DNA from: Asaia bogorensis
GTDB lineage: Bacteria > Pseudomonadota > Alphaproteobacteria > Acetobacterales > Acetobacteraceae
NCBI GenBank assembly: GCA_945897825.1
Contig: CAMDGX010000021.1
Coordinates: 1-58,257 of the forward strand
Direction: 5' to 3'
Length of the DNA stretch: 58,257 nucleotides
Within the stretch, counting starts at the first letter, position 1, and each line of letters starts with the position of its first letter. Positions 45,251 to 50,782 of the stretch are shown piece after piece. The notes under the pieces are model-generated. The model did no database searches, was not told the DNA's origin, and saw nothing but the letters and a program-made list of their open reading frames with translations. Made by a program: the position numbers and the translations under genes.

Positions 45251-48200
45251 TCAGAACGATCCACGAAAATACGCTTGCAGGGGGGCCACTTCAAGGGTGC
45301 CCGATTTCAGCGCCGCAATCGCATGGGCGGCGGCGCGCGCGCCGGCGATCGTCGTGTAGTGCGGCACCCCCTGCGTCAGCGCGCTGCGGCGGATGTCGAA
45401 GCTGTCGGTCACCGACTGCGCCCCGGCGGCGGTATTGATCACGATCTGGATATCGCCGGACTTGATCGCATCCACGCAATGCGGCCGCCCCTCCAGCACC
45501 TTGTTCACCACGGTGACCGCCAGCCCGGCTTCGCGCAGGCGCGTCGCAGTGCCGCGCGTCGCCAGGATCGCGAAGCCGCTGTCGATCAGCCGCCGCGCCA
45601 CCCCGATCGCCGCCGCCTTGTCGCTGTCGCGCACCGACAGGAACGCGGTGCCGGACTCCGGCAGCTTCACGCCTGCGCCAAGCTGACTTTTCGCGAAGGC
45701 GCGCTCGAAGCTCGAATCCAACCCCATCACCTCGCCGGTGGACTTCATCTCCGGGCCCAGGATGGTGTCCACGTTCGGGAAGCGGTTGAACGGGAACACC
45801 GCCTCCTTCACCGCCACGTGCGGCGCGATGCTGTCGTCGTCCAGCTTGAACTCGCGCAGCTTGGCGCCGGCCATCACCCGCGCGCCGATCTTGGCGATCG
45901 GAACACCGGTGGCCTTGGCCACGAAGGGCGCGGTGCGCGAGGCGCGGGGGTTCACTTCCAGCACGTAGATCTCGTTGTCCTTGATGGCATACTGAACGTT
46001 CATCAGGCCGACGACGCCGAGCGCCTTGGCCATCACTTCCGTCTCCGCCTTCAGCTCCGTCACCATCGCCGGGGACAGCGTATAGGGCGGCAGCGCGCAG
46101 GCGGAATCGCCGGAGTGAATGCCGGCTTCCTCGATATGTTCCATCACGCCGGCGACATACACCTCCTCGCCGTCGCAGATGCAGTCCACATCCACCTCGA
46201 TCGCATCGTTGAGGTAGCGGTCGATCAGCAGCGGCCCGGTCGACAGCGCCGCCTCGCCGGAGTCGCGCATGTAGCGCGCCAGCCCCGTGCGATCGTACAG
46301 GATCTCCATCGCCCGCCCGCCCAGCACGTAGCTGGGGCGGATCACGATCGGGAAGCCGATGCGAACGGTGATCGCCTCCGCCTCCTCGGCCGAGCGCGCG
46401 ATGCCGTTCTCCGGCTGGCGCAGCCCCAGCTTCTGCAGCAGCTGCTGGAACCGCTCGCGATCCTCCGCGAGGTCGATCGCGTCGGCCGAGGTGCCTAGAA
46501 TCGGGATGTCGGCCTTGGCCAGCGCCTGGCTCAGCTTCAGTGGCGTCTGCCCGCCATACTGCACGATGCAGCCCAAGACCGTCCCGTTCGCCTGCTCGCG
46601 CCGGATCAGCGCGATCACGTCCTCGGCGGTCAACGGCTCGAAATACAGCCGGTCGGAGGTGTCGTAGTCAGTCGAGACGGTTTCGGGATTGCAATTGACC
46701 ATGATGGTCTCGAACCCCGCCTCCTTCAGCGCATAGGCGGCATGGACGCAGCAATAGTCGAACTCGATGCCCTGGCCGATCCGGTTCGGCCCGCCGCCGA
46801 GGATGATGATCTTCTGCCGGTCGGTCGGCTCGGACTCGCACATCGGCGTGCCGAACCCGCCCTCGTAGGTCGAATACATATAGGGCGTGGCTGCGGCGAA
46901 CTCGGCGGCACAGGTGTCGATGCGCTTGTACACCGGCAACACGCCCAGTTTGGCGCGGATCGTCCCGATCTCGGCCTCGGTCGCGTTGGCCAGCACCGAA
47001 AGCCGCTTGTCGGAGAAACCCATCGCCTTCAGCCGGCGCAGCCTGGTCGCATCCTTCGGCAGCCCATGGGCCGTCACCTCACGCTCGGCGGCGACGATCT
47101 TCTCCAGCTCGCGCAGGAACCACGGGTCGAACTTGCTCGCCTCATGGATCTCCTCCACCGACAGCCCCGCGCGCAGCGCCTGCGCCGCCATCAGGATGCG
47201 GTCCGGCTTCGGCTGGCTCAGTGCCGCGCGAAACGCATCGGTCCCGCCATCGCCCGGCGCCTCGACCGGATCGAGGCCCGCCAGCCCCGTCTCCATGCTG
47301 CGCAACCCCTTCTGCAGCGCCTCCGCGAAGCTGCGCCCGATCGCCATCGCCTCGCCCACCGACTTCATGCTGGTCGACAGCAGCGCCGGCGTGCCGGGAA
47401 ACTTCTCGAAGGTGAAGCGCGGGATCTTCACCACCACATAGTCGATCGTCGGCTCGAAGCTTGCCGGCGTCACCATCGTGATGTCGTTGGCCAACTCATC
47501 GAGCGTGTACCCCACCGCCAGCCGCGCCGCGACCTTGGCGATCGGAAATCCGGTGGCCTTGGACGCCAGCGCCGAGGACCGCGACACCCGCGGGTTCATC
47601 TCGATCACCACCATGCGCCCATCGGCCGGGTTCAGCGCGAACTGCACGTTGGAGCCGCCGGTATCCACCCCGATCTTGCGCAGGCACGCGATCGAGGCAT
47701 CGCGCATCACCTGGTATTCCTTGTCGGTCAGCGTCAGCGCCGGCGCGACGGTCACGGAATCCCCGGTATGGATGCCCATCGGATCGACGTTCTCGATGGC
47801 GCAGATGATGATGCAGTTGTCCTTGCTGTCGCGCACCACCTCCATCTCGAACTCCTTCCAGCCGAGCACGGATTCCTCGACCAGCACCTCGGAGGTGGGC
47901 GAGGCATCCAGCCCGCCCGCCACGATCTGCTCGAACTCCTCGCGGTTGTAGGCGATGCCGCCCCCGGTCCCGCCCAGCGTGAAGCTCGGCCGGATCACCG
48001 CCGGCAGCCCGATCTCCGCCAGCGCCGCGCGCGCCTCCTCCATGGTGTGGGCAATCGCGCTGCGCGGGCTCTCGATGCCGATCTCGCTCATCGCGTCGCG
48101 GAATTTCAGCCGGTCCTCGGCGCGGTCGATCACATCGGCCTTCGCGCCGATCAGCTCCACGTTGTACTTCTCCAGCACCCCGCTCGCCGCCAGCTTCATG

Positions 48201-48496
48201 GCGGTGTTCAGCGCCGTCTGCCCGCCCATGGTCGGCAGCAGCGCGTCCGGCCGCTCCTTGGCGATGATCTTCTCGACGATGTCCGGCGTGATCGGCTCCA
48301 CATAGGTGGCATCGGCCAGCCCCGGATCGGTCATGATCGTCGCCGGGTTGGAGTTCACCAGGATCACCCGGTACCCTTCCGCCCGCAGCGCCTTGCAGGC
48401 CTGCGCCCCGGAATAGTCGAACTCGCAGGCCTGCCCGATGACGATCGGCCCCGCGCCGATGATCAGAATGCTCTTGAGGTCGGTGCGCTTCGGCAT
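45251..48496 (-). CDS. carB: carbamoyl-phosphate synthase large subunit
   Basis: A 1081-residue enzyme with two homologous ATP-grasp halves (about 1-545 and 555-930) and a C-terminal MGS-like allosteric domain. It makes carbamoyl phosphate from bicarbonate, ATP and ammonia supplied by CarA, for pyrimidines and arginine. [23 protein letters not shown] and [20 protein letters not shown] mark the two halves. The start overlaps nothing; it lies 1 nt past the small ORF upstream. Confidence 0.97.
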
Positions 48497-48497
48497 C

Positions 48498-48761
48498 TCA
48501 GGCTCCGGTCAGGGTGCGGGCGAGGGTCACGCCGTCGGGCGTAAGCTCCAGGCGCCAGTGGCATTGCAGCGCCTGGTCTTCCAGGCGGATCGGGTCGCGG
48601 ATCAGCCCGCGGGACAGCAGGTCGGCGATGGCTGTGGCGAAGTCGCCGGCATCGATCTCTTGTCCGGCAAGGCGCTCGATCTCACCCAGCGCCAGTTCCG
48701 CACTGGGCGCCGAGACGAAATGCGTCAGGCCGGTGCGCAACAGCAGCGCCTCCAGCGCCAC
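48498..48761 (-). CDS. small conserved-looking ORF between carA and carB
   Basis: An 87-residue frame starting with GTG 2 nt after the carA stop and ending 1 nt before the carB start, so it is tightly built into the operon. A usable GAGG lies at the end of carA. The sequence contains [38 protein letters not shown] and [16 protein letters not shown], which looks like a small alpha/beta or winged-helix fold. I do not recognise the family and assign no function. Confidence 0.7.
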
Positions 48762-48763
48762 GG

Positions 48764-50173
48764 TCAGGCCTGCGCCTCGATCAGGTCGACGAAGCGGCGG
48801 AACAGGTAGTGGCTATCGCTCGGCCCCGGGCTCGCCTCGGGATGGTACTGCACGCTGAAGGCGCGCTTGCCCGGGCACGCGATGCCCTCGTTGCTGCGGT
48901 CGAACAGGCTGACATGCGTCACCTGAACCCCCTCCGGCAGGCTCTCGCCATCGACCGCGAAGCCGTGGTTCTGGCTGGTGATCTCCACCCGCCCGGTGGT
49001 CAGGTCCTGCACCGGCTGGTTCGCCCCGCGATGCCCGCGCGCGAGCTTGTACGTCTTCCCCCCCAGCGCCAGCGCCAGCAACTGGTGCCCCAGGCAGATG
49101 CCGAACACCGGCTTGCCCGCCGCCAGCACGCCCTGGATCGCCGGCACCGCATACTCCCCGGTCGCCGCCGGATCGCCCGGCCCGTTCGAAAGGAACACCC
49201 CATCCGGCGCATGGCGCAGGATATCCTCGGCCGTCGCCGTCGCCGGCACCACCGTCACCCGGCACCCCGCCGCCGCCAGGCAGCGCAGGATGTTGCGCTT
49301 GGCCCCGTAGTCGACGGCCACCACATGATGCTTCGGCGCGGTCTGCCGACCATACCCCTCGGGCCACGCCCAGGTCGTCTGGTCCCATTCATAGGCCTGG
49401 GTGCAGGCGACCGTCTTGGCCAGGTCCATCCCCACCAGCCCCGGCCACGCCTTCGCCCGCCCGACCGCCCCGGCGATGTCGAACCGTCCATCCGCCGGGA
49501 ACAGCAACACCCCATGCGGCGCCCCCCCATCGCGGATGCGGATCGTCAGCGCCCGCGTGTCGATACCCGCCACCCCCGTCACCCCCTGGCCGCGCAGCCA
49601 CGCATCCAGGTGCTGGTGGCTGCGCCAGTTGCTCGGCTCGGTCACGTCCTGCTTCACGATCACCCCGCGCGCGGCGATCGTCACGGCCTCGATATCCTCG
49701 CCGTTGGTCCCCACATTGCCGATATGCGGAAAGGTGAAGGTAATGACCTGCCCGGCATAGGAAGGATCGGTCAGCGTCTCCTGGTAGCCCGTCATGCCCG
49801 TGTTGAAGCAGATCTCGGCCGGCTCGGTGCCGCTCGTATGGGCGCCGATGCCGCTGCCCCACAGCACGCTGCCATCGGCGAGCACGAGCGCCGCGGTGGC
49901 ACCCTCGGGAACGCCGTGCGCGGCAGCGGTGGGTTCGGGCATGGTCGTGCCTTCTGGCTGGGGGGCGGCGGCCCCGGAAATGTCTGCCCCGGGGATGGCG
50001 GCGAGGGTAAGCCCGGTCGCGGCGATCACCGCCGCCCAGTGCCTGGCCGGAATGCTTCGGCTCTGGCGCCACTTGCGCACCGCCTCCGTGCCCACGCCGA
50101 GCTGCCGGGCGACGGCGTCCGCCCCGCCCATGGCTTCGATAATGGCATCGACGGTGGTGGGTGCACTGGTCAT
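48764..50173 (-). CDS. carA: carbamoyl-phosphate synthase small subunit with N-terminal HTH domain
   Basis: A 469-residue protein. Residues 1-60 form a Cro/YdaS-like helix-turn-helix (GGADAVARQLGVGTEAVRKW, then RSIPARHWAAVIAATG). Residues 61-77 are a Pro/Gly/Ala linker, and 78-469 are an ordinary CarA with the amidotransferase Cys in FGICLGHQLLAL and His-Glu in QYHPEASPGP. CarA supplies ammonia from glutamine to CarB. The frame is continuous, with no frameshift. The ATG at 50173 has no ribosome-binding site and lies where transcription should begin. An internal ATG at 49942 has AGAAGG at good spacing and would give a normal 392-residue CarA. Confidence 0.93.
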   Translation of the reverse strand: MTSAPTTVDAIIEAMGGADAVARQLGVGTEAVRKWRQSRSIPARHWAAVIAATGLTLAAIPGADISGAAAPQPEGTTMPEPTAAAHGVPEGATAALVLADGSVLWGSGIGAHTSGTEPAEICFNTGMTGYQETLTDPSYAGQVITFTFPHIGNVGTNGEDIEAVTIAARGVIVKQDVTEPSNWRSHQHLDAWLRGQGVTGVAGIDTRALTIRIRDGGAPHGVLLFPADGRFDIAGAVGRAKAWPGLVGMDLAKTVACTQAYEWDQTTWAWPEGYGRQTAPKHHVVAVDYGAKRNILRCLAAAGCRVTVVPATATAEDILRHAPDGVFLSNGPGDPAATGEYAVPAIQGVLAAGKPVFGICLGHQLLALALGGKTYKLARGHRGANQPVQDLTTGRVEITSQNHGFAVDGESLPEGVQVTHVSLFDRSNEGIACPGKRAFSVQYHPEASPGPSDSHYLFRRFVDLIEAQA

Positions 50174-50179
50174 GACTGG

Positions 50180-50208
50180 GCTATATGGGAAAAAACTTCC
50201 CACTTCAA
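50180..50208 (-). promoter_or_regulatory. predicted carA promoter, possibly leaderless
   Basis: On the minus strand TTGAAG (50208-50203), a 17-bp spacer and TATAGC (50185-50180) form a sigma70-like promoter. The expected start, 6-7 bp past the -10 box, falls at 50174-50173, the first base of the carA ATG. Confidence 0.6.
50185..50203. promoter_or_regulatory. operator-like inverted repeat 1
   Basis: ATGGGAAAAAACTTCCCAC contains the inverted repeat TGGGAA-N5-TTCCCA. It fills the spacer of the predicted carA promoter, so a bound protein would block RNA polymerase. It differs from site 2 at only three of 19 positions. Confidence 0.7.
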
Positions 50209-50223
50209 CGATCCGAGCGGCGC

Positions 50224-50242
50224 GTGGGAGAAAAATTCCCAC
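50224..50242. promoter_or_regulatory. operator-like inverted repeat 2
   Basis: GTGGGAGAAAAATTCCCAC contains GTGGGA-N7-TCCCAC. Its centre is 39 bp from that of site 1, on the upstream side of the carA -35 box and between carA and the divergent yqeY gene. Confidence 0.7.
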
Positions 50243-50285
50243 TCATTCCCCCCATGCACGCATCGCCCCTGCCGCGGGCCAATCA

Positions 50286-50296
50286 CTATAGTATAG
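50286..50296 (+). promoter_or_regulatory. possible -10 region of the yqeY-dnaG-rpoD run
   Basis: The palindrome CTATAGTATAG contains TATAGT (50287-50292), close to the -10 consensus, 32 bp before the yqeY ATG. No convincing -35 box lies 17 bp upstream. Confidence 0.35.
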
Positions 50297-50323
50297 AGGG
50301 ATGTTGATCCGGAGACCGCCGCC

Positions 50324-50782
50324 ATGAGCCTGCGCGACCAATTCACCGCCGAGCTGAAAACCGCCATGCTGGCCAAGGACGCCCCGCGCGTCTCCGCCAT
50401 CCGCATGATCACCGCCCGGCTGAAGGACGTGGACATCGCCGCCCGGCCAAAGGGCATCGCCGCAGTGCCGGACGAGGAGGTCATCGCCATGCTGCGCGGC
50501 ATGGTGAAATCCCGCCGCGAAAGCGCCGATCTCTACCGCCAAGGCAACCGTCCCGAACTCGTCGCCAAGGAGGAGGCCGAGATCGCCGTCATCGAAGGCT
50601 TCCTGCCGCAACAGATGGACGACGCCGCCACCGAGGCCGCCGTGTCCGCCGCCATCGCCGAGACCGGGGCCGCCGGCATCAAGGAAATGGGCAAGGTCAT
50701 GGCCGCCCTGAAGGCAAAGCACGGCGCCGTGCTGGACATGGGCAAGGTCGGCCCGATCGTGAAGGCCAAGCTGGGAGGCTGA
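50324..50782 (+). CDS. GatB/YqeY domain-containing protein
   Basis: A 152-residue YqeY-family protein. SLRDQFTAELKTAMLAKDAPRVSAIRMI, RRESADLYRQGNRPELVAKEEAEIAVIEGFLP and GIKEMGKVMAALKAKH are typical. The domain resembles the tail of GatB and may bind tRNA, but its role is unproven. GGAGA precedes the ATG. It is the first gene before dnaG and rpoD, an arrangement common in Alphaproteobacteria, and diverges from carA. Confidence 0.92.
   Translation: MSLRDQFTAELKTAMLAKDAPRVSAIRMITARLKDVDIAARPKGIAAVPDEEVIAMLRGMVKSRRESADLYRQGNRPELVAKEEAEIAVIEGFLPQQMDDAATEAAVSAAIAETGAAGIKEMGKVMAALKAKHGAVLDMGKVGPIVKAKLGG

Follow-up and report, generated by a model that had tools for sequence, protein, structure and literature searches.

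In a 58,257-nucleotide stretch of Asaia bogorensis DNA (contig CAMDGX010000021.1 of GenBank assembly GCA_945897825.1; hereafter the window), carA encodes the glutaminase subunit of carbamoyl phosphate synthase joined in frame to an N-terminal helix-turn-helix (HTH) domain of the Cro/YdaS type. Comparison with relatives makes it very probable that this protein, HTH-CarA, binds as a dimer to two operators, O1 and O2, in its own promoter and represses its own operon. Its full form is probably translated from a leaderless mRNA, a CarA-only form from an internal start is likely, and assembly state might set the relief of repression. The idea that CarA represses its own operon was put forward in the original prediction, which was made from the letters of the window. 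It is supported by comparative sequence evidence: the position of the operators (found at 131/139 fusions of a family sample and 192/201 of an enlarged set), their overlap with the promoter, the lack of both HTH and operators at some carA genes, and signs, no more than a hint, that the recognition residue varies with the operator.

The HTH-CarA fusion gene

The carA reading frame (48764-50242, minus strand) is open from a GTG codon, across the HTH, and into CarA. The protein matches the CarA family TIGR01368 with 437 bits (cut-off 307.35, E 4.9e-131) over model positions 1-360 of 361, and the NCBIfam domain NF046037, carph-isopro, with 64.9 bits (cut-off 38, E 5.4e-18), so that its HTH is a clear member of the latter. 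The original prediction is thereby upheld in reading one continuous frame from an HTH into a complete CarA, and in its suspicion that the domain is in the NCBI library as carph-isopro; its placing of the HTH in residues 1-60 also agrees, with numbering from the ATG 50173 protein. Its frame end at 50242 does not hold as the start of the gene. An in-frame GTG is found there, and the true start is most likely the ATG at 50171..50173 (minus strand), at or beside which the 5′ end of the transcript probably lies; 50174-50242 is most likely promoter and not coding. From this ATG the gene (48764..50173, minus strand) encodes 469 amino acids: the Cro/YdaS-like HTH domain of residues 1-65 (49979..50173, minus strand), a linker of residues 63-79 that is predicted to be disordered (49937..49987, minus strand; pLDDT < 50 for 63-79), and CarA. 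The CarA motifs GICLGHQ at 358 and SVQYHPEAS at 440, which we take to be the Cys-His-Glu triad of a class-I amidotransferase, are both invariant across 45 aligned sequences.

Predicted operators in the carA promoter

The original prediction described two 19-bp inverted repeats, identical at 16 of 19 positions, upstream of carA, one of them filling the promoter spacer. Both observations are confirmed. By eye, the 19-mers at 50185-50203 and 50224-50242 are the same at 16/19 positions; the putative operators within them are O1, TGGGAA-N5-TTCCCA (50186..50202), and O2, 39 bp further upstream with one mismatch to the strict motif (50225..50241). The order of predicted elements toward the gene is TTGAAG (-35 box, 50203..50208, minus strand), 17 bp, TATAGC (-10 box, 50180..50185, minus strand), CCAGTC, and ATG, and O1 is exactly the 17-bp spacer.

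Counted in the window alone, TGGGA-N7-TCCCA with one mismatch allowed gives 3 matches against 1.34 expected, which is weak evidence, since 17/100 shuffles reach 3. In the whole genome of 4,926,293 bases, the exact pattern occurs at 2 places, both in the carA promoter, and a reversed control pattern occurs 0 times. These genome-wide counts, with the family-wide counts below, make the evidence for the predicted operators strong. An Rfam search of the carA leader for an attenuator or riboswitch gave nothing above chance.

Conservation of the fusion and its operators in Acetobacteraceae

A sample of 150 Acetobacteraceae genomes, including the genome of the window, was searched for the carph-isopro domain. 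A match was found in 144/150 genomes, over the cut-off in 142/150, and the loci read were the best match in all 142 genomes plus eight more (short stand-alone ORFs L149-L155 and a second match in genome G038). The HTH and CarA lie in one open frame in 139/150 genomes. The CarA read in frame is < 340 amino acids in three of the 139 (G033, G006, and G065), being shortened by contig or region ends in G006 and G065. The third case, locus L027 of G033, is from the same genus as the genome of the window; its HTH-CarA frame ends 66 residues into CarA, where a real stop or a sequence error is possible. Among the other genomes, there is a frame change between HTH and CarA in G088, and the two parts lie on contig ends in G035. 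G029 and G116 have a complete CarA without HTH, with a short stand-alone carph-isopro ORF elsewhere in G116. CarA is fragmentary or cut by contig ends in G026, G146, and G069, and no CarA was found at E 1e-30 in G019, G039, G075, and G110. Besides the short stand-alone ORFs, three of the loci read have no CarA in frame, namely L071 (a frame change before CarA), L076 (HTH cut at a contig end), and L091 of G038 (a different fusion). The HTH head of L091 is on a further protein other than CarA, and TTTACATGTAAA adjoins its start.

An order-level sample, all Acetobacteraceae and partly overlapping the 150 genomes, has the domain in 119/120 genomes, the exception being G155, which has CarA without HTH. 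Among loci from named species, which include Rhodopila globiformis, Roseomonas-group species, Belnapia arida, and Acidicaldus organivorans, HTH and CarA are in one frame in 79/80, and the 80th is cut at a contig end. Outside the family, an HTH head on CarA was found in 0/48 loci tested, these being part of the matches. On these sequence comparisons, the HTH-CarA fusion is a trait of the Acetobacteraceae.

The 200 bp preceding the domain were searched for the strict operator TGGGAA-N5-TTCCCA, with 12 scored positions. Among the 139 fusions, the best site has 0 mismatches in 88, ≤1 in 124, and ≤2 in 131, where first-order resampling expects 1.6 loci with ≤2 mismatches. A second, separate site with ≤2 mismatches is present in 92/139 fusions versus 0.02 expected, and the O1-O2 spacing is 36-42 bp in 101/119 loci that have both sites with ≤3 mismatches. 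A 200-bp control region inside CarA contains a site in 0/139 fusions even at 3 mismatches, and the control region from -500 to -300 contains one with ≤2 mismatches in 0/138, with 4 at 3 mismatches. Exact strict sites are present in 95/150 genomes, at least one in each; among the matches listed for the 150 genomes, 67/75 exact sites are in the carA promoter and 8 are elsewhere.

Merging all sources and removing duplicates gave an enlarged set of 201 fusions, of which 192 have an operator with ≤2 mismatches. The HTH-less carA genes of G155 and, in another genus, of G029 and G116 have no site better than 3 mismatches within ~600 bp. A control outside the family used 44 alphaproteobacterial genomes with CarA, which gave 30 loci; one Acetobacteraceae locus was left out. 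Of the 29 HTH-less carA genes from other families that remained, 0/29 have a site with ≤2 mismatches in 400 bp, nor does any of them match a simple pattern for the HTH. The comparison of upstream regions proposed in the original prediction therefore places the repeats at 192/201 fusions, and at 0/29 carA genes outside the family and 0/3 HTH-less ones inside it (≤2 mismatches). Loci L071 and L076, with no CarA in frame, do have operators. Stand-alone carph-isopro proteins were considered as binders of the same sites and rejected: no TGGGAA site with ≤2 mismatches accompanies the short ORFs L148-L155. The idea of a wider regulon in G072 was likewise discarded, since its 11 exact motif copies (for example, L307-L312) are a dispersed repeat with near-identical spacers.

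The HTH head and its recognition residue

An AlphaFold model of the protein predicts HTH helices at residues 8-14, 18-25, 29-38, and 43-53, and is confident for residues 11-50, with block means of 91-96 pLDDT. Only the HTH and linker of the full-length model were used, the CarA part being partly confident (mean pLDDT 71). The recognition helix, assigned by position, is 29-38. In sequence, the solved proteins closest to the head are XPH1, Xfaso 1 Cro, P22 Cro, and N15 Cro (E 0.001 to 0.03). In fold, it is best matched by Xfaso 1 Cro and by N15 Cro, for which a structure in complex with operator DNA is among the matches; the fold-match statistics taken alone are modest. The head scores 32.2 bits with Pfam YdaS, over the cut-off of 30, and below the cut-off with Pfam P22_Cro. 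In a phage tblastn search for a direct source of the head, the best full-length-type matches reach E 7e-4 at 40% identity.

Mutual information with position 2 of the operator half-site peaks at domain column 30, which is Gln37 of the recognition helix in the window. Position 2 is C in half or more at 7/11 loci with a residue other than Gln, versus 13/190 with Gln (raw Fisher 8.5e-6, uncorrected for kinship); on the CarA tree the same covariation is not significant, with few independent pairs. One clade contains both types: L104, L056, L084, and L113, with Ser, have CGGAA sites, and L030 and L109, with Gln, have TGGGAA or CGGGAA. These sequences give a hint that recognition residue and operator covary.

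The palindromes might instead serve a separate regulator of carAB that is not fused to the enzyme, the HTH on CarA having another role such as help in assembly, and HTH-enzyme proteins such as HppE are indeed among the fold matches of the head. We consider this unlikely. The HTH and the operators are jointly absent at carA of the three HTH-less genomes, from two genera, and at carA of other families, the sole carph-isopro protein found in the genome of the window is CarA itself, the sites are nearly private to the carA promoter, and the hint of covariation, uncorrected for kinship, would tie the operator to the fused head.

Promoter layouts around the operators

The operator is gene-proximal in 140 of the 192 loci with a good site. 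In this layout a TTG starts six bases ahead of the site in 128/140, at the same place as in the -35 box of the window, a TA-rich -10 comes directly after the site, and the ATG lies 12-13 nt past the operator in 116/140. The conserved positions of TTG, -10, and ATG around the site indicate that O1 is the 17-bp spacer and that transcription probably begins at the ATG or next to it, which would make the carA mRNA leaderless. An excerpt of a study of mapped promoters of abundant transcripts in Gluconobacter oxydans (PMC5756330) gives ttGnnn at -35 and Tatnnn at -10 and reports that leaderless mRNAs occur in that organism; the words "carA" and "carbamoyl" are absent from its main text. In the other 52 loci, a second layout has a -10-like TA at +18/+19 after the site (T 0.79, A 0.69), so that the -35 would coincide with the right operator half.

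Both layouts put the operator over the predicted core promoter, and repression is favored for this reason. Phage repressors can both recruit polymerase and repress from paired sites, and HTH-CarA could in the same manner activate its operon or regulate it dually, an O2 dimer recruiting polymerase and an O1 dimer repressing, or could control the yqeY side as well. The two sites at near-constant spacing and the intergenic region common to carA and yqeY would suit such a scheme. In both layouts, however, the operator occupies the spacer or lies over the predicted -35, which fits occlusion, and we judge activation or dual control to be no more probable than a separate regulator.

A likely internal start for CarA

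The linker of HTH-CarA in the window contains an in-frame ATG (49940..49942, minus strand), a candidate start for an HTH-less CarA, with a Shine-Dalgarno-like AGAAGG 7 nt before it (49950..49955, minus strand). Linker length in the 201 fusions varies from 10 to 67 amino acids, with a median of 22. An in-frame linker Met is present in 145/201 genes and absent from 56/201, and it has a Shine-Dalgarno sequence of at least 4 nt at a fitting distance in 109/201 genes. Across linker codons, a Shine-Dalgarno sequence of at least 4 nt precedes 110/160 Met codons versus 539/4850 other codons. In the HTH-less G155, the start of CarA bears ACAGGA, which is also found at the internal start of 3/5 genus-mates (L020, L098, L156, L158, and L159 were compared). 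A CarA-only form from the internal start, which the original prediction did not foresee, is therefore likely on sequence grounds. The enrichment of Shine-Dalgarno sequences at linker Met codons and the ACAGGA shared with G155 suggest that the ancestral carA start has probably been kept and used.

That the HTH region is a translated relic or only a regulatory leader, with working CarA coming from the internal ATG, would suit the linker starts and the ACAGGA just described, but is very improbable given that the frame is open nonetheless in the 56 genes without a linker ATG, and that several HTH residues are invariant in alignments of 13 and 28 sequences.

Proposed mechanism

Self-repression by HTH-CarA most probably works as follows. 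In an ancestor of the Acetobacteraceae, an HTH of the phage Cro type would have become fused, in frame, ahead of CarA. An HTH-CarA dimer would bind O1, within the spacer of its own promoter, and O2, 39 bp farther upstream, both private to this protein, and would block RNA polymerase, placing the carA operon under negative feedback by its own first product. The full protein would be translated from the probably leaderless mRNA, and in over half of the genes the linker ATG with its Shine-Dalgarno sequence would also give plain CarA, so that only part of the enzyme pool would carry a repressor head. What sets repression may be the assembly state, that is, free HTH-CarA versus HTH-CarA held in CarAB complexes; this is a guess, preferred to a rigid switch driven by a ligand in view of the variable length and predicted disorder of the linker. 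CarB, the substrate, and an end product are all candidate signals for relief of repression.

The gene carB, encoding the large subunit (45251..48496, minus strand), is presumably co-transcribed with carA, and between the two is an 87-amino acid ORF (48498..48761, minus strand), presumably of the same operon, for which no Pfam family match was found. Upstream of carA, on the side of 50242-50324 (plus strand), lies a divergent yqeY, and the intergenic region is common to this gene and the carA operators. Beyond yqeY are DnaG-like and RpoD-like ORFs, named from translations read by eye.

HTH heads on other proteins outside the family

Outside the Acetobacteraceae, the Pfam partners of HTH heads are aspartate/ornithine carbamoyltransferase, histidyl-tRNA-synthetase-like, CoaBC, zinc alcohol dehydrogenase, amino-acid kinase, GlmU-like, and NnrDE proteins; finer partner names (HisZ-like, ArgB-like, and so on) are our own reading of the Pfam domains. 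HTH heads on other enzymes were observed in Proteobacteria at L188, L208, L210, L213, L217, L219, L222, L226, and L343. Of these, L213, L217, and L219 have heads that fall short of the NF046037 cut-off, and L343, the only locus read from a phylum sample, is an HTH-LeuA-type protein. Pfam Mitofilin is present in 2/4 tested loci (L178 and L224 yes, L170 and L207 no). Further Mic60/Mitofilin-like HTH loci are probably among L169-L187, L189, L190, L193, L194, L196, L197, L207, L220, L221, L223, and L225, and hemD is, in our reading, the putative gene preceding the Mic60/Mitofilin-like HTH loci.

The words GTACG and CGTAC concentrate mostly 100-600 bp upstream of the non-CarA loci, with GTACG counts in 48 such loci of 33 and 48 in two 250-bp upstream bins versus 2 downstream. 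Several of the loci with HTH heads on other enzymes have striking palindromes near the start codon, for example TTGTACGTATTTTACGTACAA at L188. When palindromes before other HTH-enzyme fusions were compared with 200 shuffles each, that of L188 was reached 0 times, that of L226 6 times, and those of L210 and L212 15 times each; at the remaining 11/15 loci the palindrome was reached by 20 to 160 of 200 shuffles, so that singly they are mostly not significant. In a set of 16 loci, 4 have gap-5 arms of at least 7 bp versus 0.39 expected, and gaps of 1, 2, 3, 7, and 10 likewise give 3 or 4. These palindromes beside other HTH-enzyme starts are a suggestive hint of a wider pattern. There may be a general design in which a Cro/YdaS-like head has been joined repeatedly to biosynthetic enzymes, each with a private palindromic operator adjoining its start, metering themselves with no separate regulator; we give this about an even chance. 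Its proposed members would be CarA, PyrB/OTCase-type carbamoyltransferase, HisZ-like, LeuA, ArgB-like, CoaBC, GlmU-like, NnrDE, and, in several families, Mic60-like proteins.

Relation to known systems and significance

NF046037 is a description of a domain, to which the present analysis adds the operators, the promoter layout, the internal start, and the proposed self-repression. By our own reading, carph-isopro may have been named after fusions to carbamoyl-phosphate synthase and to isopropylmalate synthase. The Cro proteins of Xfaso 1, N15, and P22 are the closest in sequence and fold and likewise have paired palindromic operators over a promoter, whereas the Cro-like head of HTH-CarA is tethered to a metabolic enzyme. 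PutA, BirA, and NadR combine catalysis with a fused domain for DNA binding, through which they repress their own genes or pathway, and their ligand switches are established. HTH-CarA resembles them in having a DNA-binding domain on an enzyme (139/150 genomes) and operators in its own promoter (131/139), and differs in that they have other DNA-binding folds and other enzymes, and in its likely internal CarA-only start. The carAB operon of E. coli is the same operon, but the available excerpt of PMC6245113 describes a separate repressor, ArgR, and mentions no CarA-borne HTH.

In the open-access literature, with most subscription papers and bioRxiv outside the search, we found no paper on HTH-CarA, its operators, isoforms, or self-repression; the remark in the original prediction that no described self-regulating CarA is known agrees with this. 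HTH-CarA would belong to a known kind, the self-regulating enzyme.

Carbamoyl phosphate supplies both pyrimidines and arginine, and to our knowledge the control of carbamoyl phosphate synthase in Alphaproteobacteria is little studied. The Acetobacteraceae appear to carry the regulator on the enzyme itself. HTH-CarA offers a clean model in which feedback at the level of the enzyme can be tested: some genomes naturally lack the HTH, one gene probably yields two protein forms, and Gln37 versus Ser, with TGGGAA versus CGGAA, may be specificity variants. If the same were true of other pathway enzymes, this would be a broad and unrecognized style of metabolic control.
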